From contig NZ_CP109171.1 of NCBI RefSeq assembly GCF_036246005.1, positions 558,001 to 622,000 on the forward strand: 64,000 nt of DNA, given 5' to 3'. Positions 5,012 to 19,352 of the stretch are shown piece after piece. Each line of letters begins with the position of its first letter. Position 1 is the first letter of the stretch. Under the pieces are notes generated by a model that did not search any database, was not told the origin of the DNA, and saw nothing but the letters and a program-made list of their open reading frames with translations. The stretch comes from Streptomyces sp. NBC_01723 (GTDB lineage: Bacteria > Actinomycetota > Actinomycetes > Streptomycetales > Streptomycetaceae). A program made the translations under genes and the position numbers.

Positions 5012-5935
5012 ATGAGTTCAGGGTGGATGCACACGGACGCGTACCCCCTCGACGAGCGTCTGGTGCGGCGGCTGGTCGACGGGCAGTTCCCGCGCTGGGC
5101 GGGGCTGCCCGTCGAGCGCTTTCCGTCCGGTGGCACGATCAACGCGATGTACCGGCTGGGTGACGACATGGTCGTCCGACTGCCGCTCGTCAAGGGCGGC
5201 GTGGCGGACGTGACGGCCGAACGGCACTGGCTGCCCCGGCTGTCCCCCCTGCTCCCCGCCACCGTGCCCGAGGTGCTCGGGGCCGGCCAACCCGCCGGGG
5301 GTTACCCATGGCCCTGGTCGGTGTACCGGTGGCTGACCGGGGAGATCCCCGAGGCAGGGGCACTGACCGATCCCGTGGCGCTGGCGGGTGATCTGGCCGG
5401 GTTCGTCTCGGCGATGCGCACCGTCTCCCTGCCCGACGCTCCCGCCGCGCACCGCGGCGGCCCGCTCGCCACGCTGGACGCGGCGACGCGGGCCGCCCTC
5501 GAGGAACTGCGGGGCCTGCCCGAGGAGGACGTCGACTGCGACGCGCTGGCCGCCGTGTGGCACGACGCGCTGCGGGCCCCGGTCTGGGACGGGCCGCCCG
5601 TCTGGCTGCACGCCGACCTGATGCCCGGCAACCTGCTGGTCGAGGGCAGCAGGCTCACCGCGGTCATCGACTTCGGGTGCGCGGGAGTGGGCGACCCGGC
5701 CTGCGACCTCTTCCCGGCGTGGAACCTGCTGCCCGCGGGCGCCCGGGAAGTCTTCCGGGAGACGCTCGGCGTCGACGACGCGACCTGGCGGCGCGGCCGG
5801 GGGCGGGCCCTTTCCCAGGCGCTGATCGCGCTGCCGTACTACCGGAAGACCAACCCGGCGATGGCGGGCAACGCCCGCCACGTGATCCGCGCGGTGCTGA
5901 CGGAGCGGGAGCAGGGGCGCCGGGGCGCTGCTTAG
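5012..5935 (+). CDS. Aminoglycoside phosphotransferase (APH/choline kinase) family protein
   Basis: Kinase-like enzyme of 307 residues. Visible motifs are the N-terminal lobe with GGTINAMYRL, the catalytic loop HADLMPGNLLV (HxDxxxxN, around residue 200) and the metal-binding loop IDFGCAGVGDPACD. The family phosphorylates aminoglycosides, homoserine, fructosamine or other small hydroxyl compounds. This subgroup is common in Streptomyces and its substrate is usually unknown. ATG 5012 is preferred because GATGAGG lies immediately upstream; GTG 4988 extends the frame by 8 residues. Its stop overlaps the end of the convergent hydrolase by 4 bases. Confidence 0.9.
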   Translation: MSSGWMHTDAYPLDERLVRRLVDGQFPRWAGLPVERFPSGGTINAMYRLGDDMVVRLPLVKGGVADVTAERHWLPRLSPLLPATVPEVLGAGQPAGGYPWPWSVYRWLTGEIPEAGALTDPVALAGDLAGFVSAMRTVSLPDAPAAHRGGPLATLDAATRAALEELRGLPEEDVDCDALAAVWHDALRAPVWDGPPVWLHADLMPGNLLVEGSRLTAVIDFGCAGVGDPACDLFPAWNLLPAGAREVFRETLGVDDATWRRGRGRALSQALIALPYYRKTNPAMAGNARHVIRAVLTEREQGRRGAA

Positions 5936-7395
5936 GGCGCGATCCCCACACCGTCGATCCTGCTCCACGCCCGCTCCTGGGCGGCGGTCATGGCGGGCCA
6001 GTGGAGTCCGCCGGGCCGGGGGCGCACCCGGGAGGCGTACGGCGACGGGCGGAAGCCGGGATCGTAGAAGCAGCCCTCGCCGTAGGTCGCGTCGAGGGTG
6101 GCGCAGGAGGCCGCGATCGAGCGCGCTCCGGGTTTGCGGCCCGTGCGGGCCCAGGCGTCCAGCGCTGCGATGGAGCCGGCGTACTCGGAGTCGCTCAGCG
6201 AACTGTGCTCGGACTCCTTCGTGAAGGTCTGGACGAGGTTCCCGCCCCGGCCGGCGCCCCGGAGAGTGGCCAGGTAGGCCGCCTCGTGCTCCACGAATGC
6301 CGTCGGGTCGTCGATGGCGTGCAGGGTGAGGACGGGCAGGTCGACGCGGCCGGTGAGGTCGCTGTCGTAGGAGAGGTCGCGGCGTGCGGTGGGGTCGGCC
6401 GAGAAGCGTTCCACACCCGCGTTGAGTGCCTTGTCGTCGTGCGAACCGGAGTACCGCACACCGCGGTTGCTCCACGGGTTCCGCCCGCCGAGCCGGTTCG
6501 ACACGATGTCCCGGAACGTGAACGTGGCGAACTTCAGATGCGACTCCAGGGTGCGCTCGGGGATGCGGGTGACGGCGAGGATGTCGTCGAGGTTGCGCTG
6601 CTGGAGGGCGGTCCGGTCGGCCGGGGCGGACTCGTGGCCGGTGCACTCCTGGAGACGGGCGGCGAGCCCGGCGCTCGTCATCGTGGAGCCGGGGCGCAGG
6701 CCCTGCCACAGCGGGTACTGCGGCTCGGTCGGGCGCGGGTGGTTGTGGCAGTAGTACTGGTAGACGACCCGCAGGTCCACGCGGTAGTCGTAGCCGCGCG
6801 AACCGCCGCCGAGGACGCCGTTGGTGAGCAGCACCCCGTCGTACGCGCCGTGGCGTCGGCCGTAGGTCTCCGCGACCTTGGCGGCGACGTTGCCGCCCCA
6901 GGACTGACCGTGCAGGTAGGTCCGTTCCGGACGGCCGAACTCCTCGGTGAACAGGCGCCGTACGTTCTCGGTGTCCGCGGCGGCCATCCGGGCTCCGTAG
7001 CCGCCGCGCCGGTATGCGGACGCGGCCCACGCGTAGCCTTCGTCGACCATCACGGCCCAGCGCTCCAGGTCCTCGGTGCTGCGGGCCGGGTCGGAGGCGT
7101 CGCCGAGGTCGGGGCCGCCGTGCGCGTGCACGACGAGGGAGCCGTTCCAGTCCTTCGGCACGGCCATCGTGTAGTACGCCCCGTTGGCGTCCCGGCCGGT
7201 GTAGCACGAGGCCTTTCCGGCCAGGGCGGGCGGGCAGGCGGCGGCCGTGGGACGGTCGGCCGCCCGCGCGGGGGCGGCCGACACGTTGCCCAGGGTGCCG
7301 AGGAGGACGGCCGCGAGGGCGGCCGCCACCACCGCCGGACGGCTTCGGCGGTGCGTGGTCCGGGTGACGGGCGCGGGAGCGTCGGGTCTGGTCAA
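5932..7395 (-). CDS. Secreted alpha/beta hydrolase
   Basis: Exported esterase/lipase-like enzyme of 487 residues. The N terminus is a classic Sec or Tat-type signal (RRSRP, hydrophobic VVAAALAAVLLGTL, cleavage around APARAAD). The nucleophile elbow is GQSWGG near residue 195, a candidate acid is the Asp in LHAIDDPT near residue 360, and a candidate catalytic His is in ESEHSSL near residue 395. A VVHAHGGPDLG strand upstream supplies the oxyanion HG motif. It diverges from the secreted alginate-lyase-family gene across a 255-base promoter region, suggesting coordinated secretion of hydrolases. The substrate is unknown. Confidence 0.87.
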   Translation of the reverse strand: MTRPDAPAPVTRTTHRRSRPAVVAAALAAVLLGTLGNVSAAPARAADRPTAAACPPALAGKASCYTGRDANGAYYTMAVPKDWNGSLVVHAHGGPDLGDASDPARSTEDLERWAVMVDEGYAWAASAYRRGGYGARMAAADTENVRRLFTEEFGRPERTYLHGQSWGGNVAAKVAETYGRRHGAYDGVLLTNGVLGGGSRGYDYRVDLRVVYQYYCHNHPRPTEPQYPLWQGLRPGSTMTSAGLAARLQECTGHESAPADRTALQQRNLDDILAVTRIPERTLESHLKFATFTFRDIVSNRLGGRNPWSNRGVRYSGSHDDKALNAGVERFSADPTARRDLSYDSDLTGRVDLPVLTLHAIDDPTAFVEHEAAYLATLRGAGRGGNLVQTFTKESEHSSLSDSEYAGSIAALDAWARTGRKPGARSIAASCATLDATYGEGCFYDPGFRPSPYASRVRPRPGGLHWPAMTAAQERAWSRIDGVGIAP

Positions 7396-15984: not shown

Positions 15985-16007
15985 CCGTCCCGCACGGCGT
16001 CGTGCCC

Positions 16008-16040
16008 AGGGGCTCCCGGTGACGTCGGCCGGGAGCCCCT
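16008..16040. terminator. Bidirectional hairpin between FMO and prenyltransferase
   Basis: Perfect 12-base stem AGGGGCTCCCGG / CCGGGAGCCCCT with a 9-base loop, lying in the 77-base gap between two convergent genes. No U-tract, as usual in Streptomyces. Confidence 0.75.
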
Positions 16041-16061
16041 GTGGTGTGCCGGGCGGCCGGC

Positions 16062-17189
16062 TCAGTGCACCGCGACCGGATGCCGGGCCGGCATCGCGGC
16101 GGGCGGCCGGACCGCGTACGCCTCCGAGGAGAGGTACGCCGTCACCCGCGGCGGCCGGCCCCGCTGGAGGGCCAGCGCCAGGTAGGCGATGAGCCCGACC
16201 CCGTCCTCCGGCCGCCGGTCGGTGACGGCGGCCAGCGCCCGGACCAGCATCGAGGCGTCCATGCCGTGCCGTTGCAGCAGCCGCGACGCCCGGGCCAGGG
16301 CCTCCCCGTCGTGCGGGGCGTAGTCCCTGACCGGGATGTGCAGGGTGAACCCGCTGGGCCGGGGGTCCGCCGGGCCGGTGAAGGAGTGGCAGGACAGGCC
16401 GGGCAGCCCGTCGAGTCCCGTCGCCCCGGGCCCGGCGCCCGCGACCGTGCGGAAGAAGCCTTCGACCATGGCCGGAACCGGCTCCGGGATCATGCGGGAC
16501 AGCCTCCCGGCACGGGCGGAGGTCAGGCTGTCGTGGCGCACGTAGACCTTCACCCGGGGTTCCTCCCAGTCCCCCAGGTCCAGGGCGAGGAACGGATGAC
16601 CGCTGCCCGGGGGCAGGTTGGCGTAGGCCCGCCCGAGCCCCAGTCGGCGCAGCGCCTCGCGCACCGTCGCGGCGGAACGTTCCTCCCCGTTGGCGGCGGG
16701 GTTCAGGTAGACCTTGACCTTGGGCACACCGCCGGGTGTCAGTTCCAGCGCGCACCACAGGGCCAGGGGGCCGTGCGGAGCGGGCGGCAGGAAGAGGTCC
16801 GTCACCTCGTCGAGGGGGCCGGTTCCGAAACGCCACCGGCGCGCCATCTCCCGGACCGTCTCCAGTCCGGCCCGGCCGTTGTGAGCCAGGCTGTCTGCGC
16901 CGCAGCCCGGTTCGATGAGCACCCGCAGGACGGGGGCCGCGTCCGGCCGGAAGGAGAGGGAGAACTCGACGGGGGTGTGATCGTCGGAGAGGAAGGTGCG
17001 GTAGGGCGGCGGCAGGTGGAGCGGCCGTCCGGCCACCGGCCCCAGGGAGTCCGTCAGGACCCGGGCGTAGGTCTCGATGTCCGCTCCGGCGAGGCCGGCG
17101 ACCGCGCCGAGTCTTCGCAGCTGGCCGCCCGTGAGGGCGCCGAGTGTCGGCACGCCCCGCGGGTCCGTACCCGTCGGCGCGGCGGTCAC
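16062..17189 (-). CDS. iptA: DMATS-type (ABBA) indole prenyltransferase
   Basis: Soluble aromatic prenyltransferase of 375 residues in the bacterial DMATS family, transferring a dimethylallyl group to tryptophan or a related indole. Family blocks include TPVEFSLSFRPDAAPVLRVLIEPG, VPKVKVYLNPAANG, EEPRVKVYVRHDSLT and the C-terminal PRVTAYLSSEAYAV. I place the start at GTG 17189 because it overlaps the stop of a small upstream ORF that has a strong ribosome site; the open frame to 17339 would begin inside a palindrome. Beside the FMO and paa genes it resembles S. coelicolor IptA/SCO7467 (C5-specific on Trp). Regiospecificity here is inferred. Confidence 0.87.
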   Translation of the reverse strand: MTAAPTGTDPRGVPTLGALTGGQLRRLGAVAGLAGADIETYARVLTDSLGPVAGRPLHLPPPYRTFLSDDHTPVEFSLSFRPDAAPVLRVLIEPGCGADSLAHNGRAGLETVREMARRWRFGTGPLDEVTDLFLPPAPHGPLALWCALELTPGGVPKVKVYLNPAANGEERSAATVREALRRLGLGRAYANLPPGSGHPFLALDLGDWEEPRVKVYVRHDSLTSARAGRLSRMIPEPVPAMVEGFFRTVAGAGPGATGLDGLPGLSCHSFTGPADPRPSGFTLHIPVRDYAPHDGEALARASRLLQRHGMDASMLVRALAAVTDRRPEDGVGLIAYLALALQRGRPPRVTAYLSSEAYAVRPPAAMPARHPVAVH

Positions 17190-17293
17190 CGGCCCGTCCC
17201 CGGCCGGAGCCGCACAGAGCGATACCCGCCGGGAGAGGCGGGTATCGGGGGTTTCGGCGGCGGGAAAGCGGCGTTCGTGGATATGTGGTCCAC
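17186..17293 (-). CDS. Short proline-rich leader ORF coupled to the prenyltransferase
   Basis: A 35-codon ORF, GTG 17293 to TGA 17186, giving MDHISTNAAFPPPKPPIPAS and a further 15 residues. The strongest ribosome site in the region, AAAGGAGGTG (17296-17305), sits 4 bases upstream. Its stop overlaps the prenyltransferase GTG as GTGA. It carries a poly-proline run (PPPKPPIP) directly before a 10-base-pair RNA hairpin. There is no Trp codon, so it is not a classical tryptophan attenuator. It could be a translational-coupling or ribosome-pausing leader, or a conserved microprotein. Function unknown. Confidence 0.6.
   Translation of the reverse strand: MDHISTNAAFPPPKPPIPASPGGYRSVRLRPGTGR
17221..17246 (-). 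promoter_or_regulatory. Hairpin inside the leader ORF
   Basis: Perfect 10-base stem GATACCCGCC / GGCGGGTATC with a 6-base loop, located within the leader ORF right after its proline codons and 32 bases before the prenyltransferase start. A ribosome paused on the PPP codons would abut this stem. Confidence 0.5.
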
Positions 17294-17310
17294 GACACCT
17301 CCTTTTACTC

Positions 17311-17339
17311 GTAAGCAACTTGAATGCCGCGTTGCTCAC
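17311..17339. promoter_or_regulatory. Near-palindrome upstream of the leader ORF (possible operator)
   Basis: GTAAGCAAC and GTTGCTCAC are inverted with 8 of 9 positions paired and an 11-base spacer, just upstream of the leader ORF ribosome site. A likely position for a promoter-proximal operator; no regulator is assigned. Confidence 0.4.
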
Positions 17340-17396
17340 TACCCGTGCCGTTCAACCTTCATGCGAAAGGGGCGGGTTGGGAGGGTGTTGTACAGA

Positions 17397-18743
17397 TCAC
17401 CGTGTGAGCCAGTTGAGGAACTGGCTCCACATGCCGCTGCGTTCGGCCGGCCGGGCCGGGGTGGCGGCCTCGGACTCCGCCGCACCCGGGGTCGGCCGCG
17501 GCTCGGCACCGCGTCCGGTGCGGGCCGGGGTGAAGCGGGCCGGCAGGGTGGCCAGGGCCCGGTTGAAGGGGCCCGGACGCCAGGTCAGGCTGTCCTCCGG
17601 GACGGCGAGTTCGACGTCGGGCAGCTCGTTGAAGAGGTGCTCGATGGCGGTGACCGTGATGTGCCGGGCCGGTTCCTTGGACGGGCAGGCGTGCGGTCCG
17701 GCGCTCCAGGCGAGGTGCGCGCGGTTGCTGCCGGCCTGGCGGGAGGCCCTGAGGGCCGGTCCGGTGTTGGCCGCGGCGAAGCTGACCAGCACGAGATCGC
17801 CCGCCTGGAGGTGCTGTCCGGCGAGTTCCGTGTCGGCGGCCGGGTAGTGCGGCGCGTAGTTCGACATGGGCGGGTTCTCCCACAGCGTGTCGTCCAGCGC
17901 CTCGTCGATCAGGCCGCCCTCGCGCGCGTACCGCTCATGGGTGAGCAGGCGGTGCAGCGTGTTGCCGATGAGGTTGCGCAGCGGCTCGGCGCCCGCGCCG
18001 AGGAGCAGGGCGAGCTGGTGGACCATCTCCTCGTCGCTGAGGCCCGCCTCGTGGCGCATCAGCCAGGAGGTGACGTCGTCGCCGGGCTTGCTCCGCTTGA
18101 GCGCGACGAGTTCCCCCACCGCCTGGAAGAGCACCTCGACGGCCTTCTCGGCGTTGACGCCGTCGAACATGCCGGAGATGCCGAACAGCACCCGGTCGCC
18201 GATGTCGGCGGGGCAGCCGAAGAGTTCGTTGAACACGAACAGCGGCAGCTGCTTGGCGTAGTCGCCGAGAAGGTCGGCGGATCCGCGGGCGGCGAACTGG
18301 GAGATGAGGTAGCCGGAGATCTGCTCCGTGCTCCGGCTCAGCCGCCGGGTGTCCACCCGCGCCATGCTGTCGGTGACGGCCTGGCGGAGCCTGAGGTGGT
18401 CGGCGCCGTCGGCGAACATGCAGTTGGGCCGGTAGGCGAGCAGGGGCGCGACCGGGCTGTCCGGGCCGACCTTGCCCTCGTTGAAGGCCCGCCAGCGCCG
18501 GGCGTCCTTCCGGAAGGACCCGGAGTCCTGGAGCAGCTGGAGGGCGGCGGCGTAGTCCGTGACCAGGGTCGCCTCGACGCCCGGGGCCAGTTCGACGGGC
18601 GCCGCGGCCCCGTAGTGGCGCAGGTACTCGTAGTACGCCTGCGGGTCGGCGGCGAACTCCGGTCCGTGCAGGGGCACTCTGGCGCCGGAGCCGTGGGCCG
18701 GGCACCCGGGCGGCGGCACCGGGGCCGTGTCGTGAGCGTTCAT
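17397..18743 (-). CDS. cvnE: Conservon cytochrome P450 (CvnE-like), lacks EXXR
   Basis: P450-fold protein of 448 residues at the end of the first conservon. The heme-Cys loop reads WSAGPHACPSKEPARH, with an unusual PSK after the Cys, and the I helix has GAGAEPLRNLIGN instead of AGxxT. The K-helix EXXR is replaced by DTLW (EALDDTLWENPP), as in the CYP157 family, known for loss of this otherwise invariant motif. The C-terminal 40 residues are Pro/Ala-rich. It starts 15 bases after cvnD. A role as a sensor or heme-binding partner of the conservon is as plausible as catalysis. Confidence 0.88.
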   Translation of the reverse strand: MNAHDTAPVPPPGCPAHGSGARVPLHGPEFAADPQAYYEYLRHYGAAAPVELAPGVEATLVTDYAAALQLLQDSGSFRKDARRWRAFNEGKVGPDSPVAPLLAYRPNCMFADGADHLRLRQAVTDSMARVDTRRLSRSTEQISGYLISQFAARGSADLLGDYAKQLPLFVFNELFGCPADIGDRVLFGISGMFDGVNAEKAVEVLFQAVGELVALKRSKPGDDVTSWLMRHEAGLSDEEMVHQLALLLGAGAEPLRNLIGNTLHRLLTHERYAREGGLIDEALDDTLWENPPMSNYAPHYPAADTELAGQHLQAGDLVLVSFAAANTGPALRASRQAGSNRAHLAWSAGPHACPSKEPARHITVTAIEHLFNELPDVELAVPEDSLTWRPGPFNRALATLPARFTPARTGRGAEPRPTPGAAESEAATPARPAERSGMWSQFLNWLTR

Positions 18744-18758
18744 GTCTGCTCCCAGCTC

Positions 18759-19352
18759 CTAGCGGGTGCGGTCCAGCAAGTAGCGGACGAGGGTGGTCAG
18801 TGCGGCCGCCGAGGACTTCTCGTCGCGGGCGTCGCAGGTGACGACGGGGGTGTCGTCGAGCAGGTCGAGCGCCTCGCGCAGCGCGTGTTCGTCACGCAGC
18901 GGGGTGCCGTCGAAGTGGTTGACGGCGATGGCGTAGTCGAGCCCGTAGTGCTCGATGAGGTCGATCACGGGGAAGGAGTCCGCCAGCCGCTCGGGGTCGA
19001 CCAGCACCAGGGCGCCGAGCGCGCCGCGTGCCATGTCCTCCCACATCTGGACGAAGCGCTGCTGGCCGGGGGTGCCGAAGAGGTAGAGGACGACGCGGTC
19101 GCTGATCGTGAGGCGGCCGAAGTCCATGGCGACCGTGGTGGTGGTCTTGCCCTGGACGCCGCCCAGGTCGTCGACCGACTCGGCGGCCTGCGTCATCGTC
19201 TCCTCGGTGGACAGCGGCTCGATCTCCGAGATGGAGCCGATGAGGGTGGTCTTGCCCACCGCGAAGTGTCCGACGACGAGGATCTTGACCGCGGTCTGGG
19301 TCGCCCCGCCGCGTACGTAGTCCCGCTCATCCAAACTTGGCGCGGAGCCCAT
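18759..19352 (-). CDS. cvnD: Conservon GTP-binding protein CvnD
   Basis: Small Ras-like GTPase of 197 residues, the switch of the membrane-associated conservon complex. Motifs are the P-loop GHFAVGKTT (residue 28), switch region TVAMDFGRL, G3-like FGTPGQQRF, and G4 NHFD in place of NKxD. The C terminus has no lipidation Cys. It overlaps cvnC by 26 bases. In S. coelicolor such proteins act with CvnA-C in a G-protein-coupled-like assembly influencing development and antibiotic production. Confidence 0.94.
   Translation of the reverse strand: MGSAPSLDERDYVRGGATQTAVKILVVGHFAVGKTTLIGSISEIEPLSTEETMTQAAESVDDLGGVQGKTTTTVAMDFGRLTISDRVVLYLFGTPGQQRFVQMWEDMARGALGALVLVDPERLADSFPVIDLIEHYGLDYAIAVNHFDGTPLRDEHALREALDLLDDTPVVTCDARDEKSSAAALTTLVRYLLDRTR

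Follow-up and report, generated by a model that had tools for sequence, protein, structure and literature searches.

A conserved leader ORF with an internal hairpin before conservon-linked indole prenyltransferase genes

A short ORF with a strong ribosome site ends on the very bases at which a DMATS-type indole prenyltransferase (PT) gene of Streptomyces sp. NBC_01723 begins. Is this ORF a translated leader that controls PT, and what role may be assigned to the hairpin inside it? The locus was analysed in a stretch of 64,000 nucleotides (the window; contig NZ_CP109171.1, positions 558,001 to 622,000). Four conservon-type genes, a P450-type gene, the leader and PT follow one another on the minus strand, on which all features described below lie, and a flavin monooxygenase gene is convergent to PT. 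PT (16062..17189), the gene predicted to be controlled, matches Pfam PF11991 (Trp_DMAT, E = 1.4e-14), and its start is fixed by the conserved NTGA described below. The SCO7467-like label of PT comes from the original prediction and agrees with the cluster outlined in PMC3617294. The P450-type gene (17397-18743) has no Pfam match at E 0.001 and takes its name from the same outlined cluster. Conservon-linked indole prenyltransferase clusters are common across actinomycetes, according to that account (PMC3617294).

For comparison, the window, the stretches from named genomes and 35 further stretches were assembled into 126 distinct upstream regions, 110 of conservon type and 16 not. In the named-genome scan, the PT relatives are the best 80 of 126 stretches; in a draw of 392 genomes of the genus, 88 have a PT match at E up to 0.001. 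Upstream of PT and on its strand, the P450 gene is present in every named conservon-type locus but L022, where the contig begins too near; L022 and the loci from L082 onward were classed as conservon-type from their upstream sequence, not gene by gene. All counts below are of loci and not of independent events. The 16 excluded non-conservon loci (L062, L072, L074, L075, L077, L079, L080, L081, L169, L170, L171, L173, L174, L175, L176 and L177) have, by the leader rule given below, an NTGA ORF in 2 (L175, L176) and an in-frame start further upstream in 3 (L072, L170, L174). Some PT genes outside conservon clusters carry a strong Shine-Dalgarno (SD) site at their own start (L072, L077, L170). 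One upstream comparison covered 70 loci (57 distinct upstream windows), leaving aside type A-like loci and doubtful starts, and aligned 54 of the 57, all but L027, L037 and L048.

A leader that ends at the prenyltransferase start

The leader ORF (17186..17293) has 35 codons, starts with GTG and encodes the peptide VDHISTNAAFPPPKPPIPASPGGYRSVRLRPGTGR, after which its TGA stop overlaps the PT start as GTGA (17186..17189). It is preceded by the SD site AAAGGAGGTG (17296..17305). The window therefore holds both hallmarks of an NUGA-coupled uORF, an out-of-frame stop/start overlap of 4 nt and an SD site before the uORF. These elements, together with the 10-bp hairpin, all lie where the original prediction had placed them. 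It had also stated that PT has no ribosome site comparable to that of the leader, which holds by inspection for the window; in 69 of 94 leaders, however, an SD-like motif stands no more than 16 nt from the PT start.

Among the 110 distinct conservon-type loci, 94 have an SD-led leader ending exactly at the PT start, 14 have a leader fused in frame to PT, and two have neither (L026, L078). In the named genomes and the window taken by themselves (n = 72), the corresponding numbers are 58, 12 and 2. A leader was accepted if its start had an SD of 5/6 or better and its ORF ended exactly at the PT start (NTGA). Under this rule the true PT frame gives a leader in 96/110 loci, versus 2/110 and 0/110 in the two false frames, and the arrangement is thus more than chance, as had been proposed. 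The 96 include L031 and L036, which the script labelled as NTGA via other starts; both were reassigned to the fused class, leaving 94. These 94 leaders come in 26 different lengths, from 25 to 83 codons, and every one lands at the PT start; for the 25-codon leader of L103 the start is perhaps wrong. The overlap reads GTGA in 58 loci, ATGA in 31 and TTGA in 5, and the leader start is GTG in 81, ATG in 11 and TTG in 2; since both the NTGA and a start codon were demanded by the rule, these letters are descriptive and have no evidence value. With 94 overlapping and 14 fused leaders, the predicted route to PT begins at the leader ribosome site in 108/110 loci. This apparent coupling, in either form, is the strongest evidence that translating the leader matters. 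The retention of frame, ribosome site and overlap in the 94 loci has the appearance of a translated leader coupled to PT rather than of noise, in line with the original prediction.

The in-frame fusions (L024, L028, L031, L035, L036, L037, L044, L047, L048, L064, L066, L069, L101 and L145) seem, by appearance, to span several independent lineages, and the enzyme would gain an N-terminal extension in each. L036 has a second ORF (5831-5959) that begins with a GTG within the SD and still ends at GTGA; it resembles a relic of an unfused state. Of the two exceptions, L026 has no leader, and in it the P450 stop and the PT start directly overlap each other (by inspection); in L078 the best PT segment spans just 6578-7108 and the leader continues without reaching an NTGA, so that this copy may be damaged. 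Another set of loci (L056, L057, L061, L063, L160, L162 and L164) lacks the standard palindrome and has leaders of 77-79 codons, with ATGA ends seen for the L056-L063 group; some of them have a different inverted repeat near RIPAAPGSG (by eye).

Conservation does not lie in the peptide. Taken over 26 distinct leaders of 35 codons, minor-letter counts at codon positions 1, 2 and 3 are 11, 3 and 8 for codons 2-9; 34, 21 and 20 for codons 10-15; 30, 51 and 41 for codons 16-25, which contain the hairpin; and 32, 55 and 41 for codons 26-34. No third-position excess of changes, the mark of conservation at the peptide level, was found in these leaders. The recurring motif IPAxxGGY is a one-phase reading of the hairpin, present in 80 of the 81 NTGA leaders that have the hairpin by rule; the hairpin is read in another phase in L099, L167 and several fused loci, and the leaders of L099 and L167 nonetheless end at NTGA. 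The altered phase and the absent third-position excess together argue that the leader peptide is not the conserved thing.

The same holds for the prolines. The original prediction had the hairpin stand just after the proline run PPPKPPIP; in fact the run continues into the hairpin, and its last codons, reading IPA, are the 5′ arm itself. Pausing on prolines had been suggested as the basis of control. As a general rule this is contradicted by the relatives, in which PPP occurs in just 17/94 leaders; a further 43 have PP without PPP, and 34 have neither. Poly-proline is lineage-specific, and pausing on it does not account for these leaders in general. A Trp attenuator was rejected as well, since a run of regulatory Trp codons is absent from the window's leader; this leader has no Trp codon and any Trp codon is found in 16/94 leaders, which bears out the earlier statement that it is not a standard Trp attenuator.

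The hairpin P3 and its tail

The hairpin inside the leader ORF, here called P3, has the form GATACCCGCC-N6-GGCGGGTATC (17221..17246), with a stem of 10 bp, or 11 bp if the flanking C-G pair is counted. Its RNA folds at -18.7 kcal/mol (z = -5.7; equalled by 0/200 shuffles). With up to 4 mismatches and a 6-nt loop as the rule, P3 is present in 93/110 loci and exact in 78. It is also locus-specific: in the 8.85-Mb genome the palindrome has a single site even with 3 mismatches permitted, which again speaks against chance. In the 392-genome draw, all 43 genomes with a P3 of no more than one mismatch have that match just upstream of PT (by-eye comparison). Places with two mismatches number 14, of which 2 are at PT (G092, G173) and 12 elsewhere, and the backward control of the pattern matches in 4/392 genomes at up to 2 mismatches.

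In an alignment of 78 distinct rows, 98.3% of P3 cells are paired and changes on both sides occur in 3 pairs, in 4 cells (A-U to G-C, U-A to C-G and C-G to U-A). The percentage paired, the double changes and the covariation score were each attained by 0/500 shuffles, while the number of pair types is at shuffle level (attained by 123/500). Controls slid by +2 and +3 have covariation scores above that of P3, and the +3 control also has 3 doubly changed pairs, but just 46.0% and 38.7% of their cells are paired. Such compensatory changes in the stem had been anticipated, and the ORF frame, ribosome site, overlap and hairpin are all conserved beyond close relatives, as was expected of a functional leader.

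The 17 loci in which P3 is absent by the rule are of several kinds. L026 is leaderless; L060, L064 and L167 have variant stems, an unrelated one of 14 bp in the place of P3 in L064 and one with a 5-nt loop in L167; the seven loci with leaders of 77-79 codons have another repeat at best; and L038, L065, L066, L069, L095 and L146 retain the leader with no clear P3 counterpart. The spacer between the arms is nearly fixed in length, whereas the distance from P3 to the leader start varies from 14 to 140 nt and that to the leader stop from 29 to 104 nt. The arms are near-invariant in Streptomyces and Kitasatospora, and, with a few changes, in Actinacidiphila loci. Such near-invariance exceeds the needs of a plain terminator. 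Codon and pairing constraints may jointly explain a part of it, and a binding factor for P3 may be another source.

P3 is followed by the tail UAUCGCUCUG (17215..17224), a degenerate U-tract ending in a conserved pyrimidine-G that resembles a consensus pause. On the PT side of the stem, the U fraction at positions 1-5 is 0.71, 0.64, 0.40, 0.62 and 0.86 (84 loci), with G at position 6; position 5 is a pyrimidine in 92/93 loci and position 6 a G in 92/93. Many of the 84 relatives have a richer U-tract than the window. The flanks of the palindrome are one-sided in these 84 loci, with a mean of 3.2 T in the 6 bases after it and of 0.7 A in the 6 bases before. The codons of the tail are also unusual: among 77 leaders reading GGC GGG TAT/TAC, 47 continue with CTT, and TTT stands one codon further on in 22, and in seven genes of the window CTT makes up 2/227 Leu codons and TTT 1/64 Phe codons. 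If the pyrimidine is taken as RNA position -1, the base after it is G+1 and G-10 falls on the final G of the GC stem; G-10, Y-1 and G+1 are the layout of the elemental or consensus pause as described in PMC12288461. Pausing near P3 may thus be by RNA polymerase rather than by the ribosome.

As a terminator, P3 is less convincing. A simple scan for canonical terminators and sigma-70 promoters found none in 16000-18800 of the window and none in 5400-6200 of L053, a locus in which the stem absorbs one U of the tract. A terminator score is above 0 in 18/93 loci and -25.8 for the window. A U-tract measure has medians of 2.0 in the direction of PT and 1.4 on the other strand, a modest difference between values that both include the palindrome's own TATC. 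The window has the hairpin inside a leader ORF that is characteristic of pyrBI-type control, and it lacks the canonical U-tract; because its tract is degenerate, termination in the window's own species is only putative.

The promoter-like element and two further repeats

Upstream of the leader lies the promoter-like element GCATGA-N14-GGGTAG (17339..17364). A search that required both words, GCAT and GGGTA, nearly exactly and left their spacing free from 10 to 23 found GCAT-N16-GGGTA at one single spacing in 103/110 distinct loci. In its own genome, the full element matches exactly at a single place; a further match has 3 mismatches, and the backward control also matches once. GGGTA stands 48-56 nt from the leader start in all but one of 88 leaders measured. 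Promoters of SigB homologues in Table 2 of PMC8346170 include SCO0566p, GCATAA-N14-GGGTAT. The element has the layout of this class (a GNNT-type -35, N12-14 and a GGG.A. -10) and is a predicted promoter; to judge from this layout, transcription of the leader is probably driven by a SigB-family promoter. If so, the prenyltransferase would be linked to stress or osmotic sigma factors.

Two further repeats lie between this element and the leader codons. P1, an inverted repeat GTGAGCAAC-N11-GTTGCTTAC just past the -10-like box (17311..17339), could be an RNA hairpin or a DNA operator. It was scored in 53 of 60 segments, without type A-like loci and loci lacking GCAT/GGGTA, and minus L050, L054, L064, L066, L069, L076 and L167. 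In these 53 rows 80.8% of cells are paired versus 77.5% in shuffles (attained by 0/500), and the covariation score is attained by 6/500; doubly changed pairs (327/500) and pair types (457/500) are not above shuffles, and covariation support for P1 is moderate at best. If transcription starts a few bases past GGGTAG, the first arm of P1 is partly outside the RNA, and P1 may therefore be a DNA site. P2 (17270..17299) is a possible hairpin that would hide the SD and start codon of the leader. For 17264-17305 the fold has -18.4 kcal/mol (z = -3.85), and 89.7% of P2 cells are paired versus 25.4-60.6% in slid versions; in double changes and in covariation score P2 does not rise above shuffles, and RNAalifold gives 3 of its pairs, not the full helix. 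A known riboswitch was considered for this region and rejected, with 0 Rfam matches at E up to 1 over 16900-17600.

A proposed gate and its alternatives

From the observed conservation, frame, overlap and stem covariation we infer a coupling, a pause and a signal. The reading we favour, and consider rather probable, is that the SD-led uORF is translated for the act and not for its peptide, and that it gates PT through reinitiation together with a pause or weak terminator at P3. Transcription of the leader would start at a promoter of its own, probably one of the SigB family. Ribosomes would load at the strong leader site, pass through P3, stop at the TGA and reinitiate at the overlapping PT start; reinitiation is suggested by the anatomy, including the weak PT ribosome site of the window, and by the precedent of uPPE2. 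PT production would in this way probably depend on ribosomes first traversing the leader. P3 and its U-rich, YG-ended tail would act as a pause or weak-terminator signal. With a ribosome close behind RNA polymerase, P3 could not fold and transcription would continue; with the leader untranslated, RNA polymerase would pause or end at P3, and PT would also stay untranslated. The simplest signal would be the translation state itself, under a stress-type promoter. In E. coli, hairpins are suppressed by a nearby ribosome, one in a leader (as described in PMC5021804) and one close to a stop codon (as described in PMC4824070). It is also conceivable, albeit unlikely, that the locus represents a new translation-state sensor, in which an invariant hairpin joined to a polymerase pause is read by some factor or by the trailing ribosome and is still selected in leader-PT fusions.

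The NTGA and fusion statistics require translational coupling alone, and P3 might then merely space, protect or stabilise the mRNA with no effect on transcription. The poor U-tract of P3 in the window and the absence of a standard P3 from 17/110 loci suit this simpler account; against it stand the rare U-rich codons behind the stem and the YG that is retained even where it is read in another frame, and we regard it as possible but somewhat doubtful. In a different view, P3 is a 26-bp palindromic DNA operator for a repressor or a road-block protein and its location in an ORF is secondary. Near-invariant arms, a near-fixed spacer and a palindrome that occurs just once in its own genome at up to 3 mismatches would all be expected of an operator. 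However, the T-rich flank is one-sided, the whole stem is replaced in L064, double changes and G-U cells preserve pairing in RNA, and the distances to leader start and stop are variable, so that an operator appears improbable.

Two other accounts place the weight on the nascent peptide. An attenuator sensing prolines or EF-P, in which pausing at PPPKPPIP uncouples translation and lets P3 form, has a parallel in E. coli, where poly-proline before the pyrL terminator raises termination without EF-P (as reported in PMC5021804), and the run is present in the window's leader; the scarcity of PPP and the 34 leaders without any PP show that it is not a conserved principle, and there is little chance that it explains the locus. 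The functional product might instead be the leader peptide, or a leader-PT fusion that arises when ribosomes shift frame at the overlap; in favour of this are the 14 natural fusions, the recurrence of IPAxxGGY and the small share of frameshifted fusion described for uPPE2, which gave some of it (PMC11260477). Nevertheless, codon positions show no constraint and IPAxxGGY is a reading of the stem that is altered in L099, L167 and several fused loci, which makes such a product very improbable. The proposed gate of reinitiation and P3 is compared below with systems already known.

In the growth-rate attenuator of ampC in E. coli, ribosome loading in the leader stops the folding of a terminator, and the leader is a minimal start-stop that is not known to have NTGA coupling. 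Loading of the leader would block terminator folding here as well; the present leader differs in being longer and in its NTGA overlap. The pyrL leader responds to pyrimidine supply and has a strong terminator, whereas the U-tract here is degenerate (in the window) and the leader ends directly at the gene start. Both pyrL and the present leader are ORFs that cross a terminator-type hairpin before the gene, and in pyrBI a close ribosome blocks its folding (PMC5021804). With regard to the pyrimidine-dependent polymerase pausing of pyrBI-type control, the present locus shows the YG with G-10 that resembles a consensus pause. The uPPE2-PPE2 pair of Mycobacterium tuberculosis, as presented in PMC11260477, has an SD-bearing uORF and an AUGA overlap that experimentally works mainly by reinitiation. 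The two systems share the SD-bearing uORF, the out-of-frame 4-nt overlap and a downstream ORF whose SD is poor or absent; uPPE2 lies behind a B12 riboswitch, in contrast to the present leader, which has no Rfam match, carries a conserved hairpin inside the uORF and is fused in some loci. The amino-acid leader attenuators of Streptomyces likewise have a short translated ORF before a gene related to amino-acid metabolism, as outlined in PMC8079986 and PMC1262725, but the present leader has no run of regulatory codons and ends at the gene start. For S. lividans TK24, the leader peptides named in the corresponding part of PMC8079986 number eight (leuL and trpL twice each, alaL, ilvL, metL and thrL), and this leader is not among them; nor is it described, by title or start of abstract, among the open-access literature matches listed. 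Within that literature it is an undescribed instance uniting known devices.

When PT is on may be predicted from its conserved promoter, leader and hairpin. Leaders in nature range from short to long to fused, and this series offers a testable case of how a ribosome gates polymerase in a short uORF of a high-GC genus. Constructs with the annotated PT gene alone may lose the natural translation start. In the expression in S. lividans described in PMC3617294, the upstream region including the ribosomal binding site was amplified, and the description says nothing further on that region.
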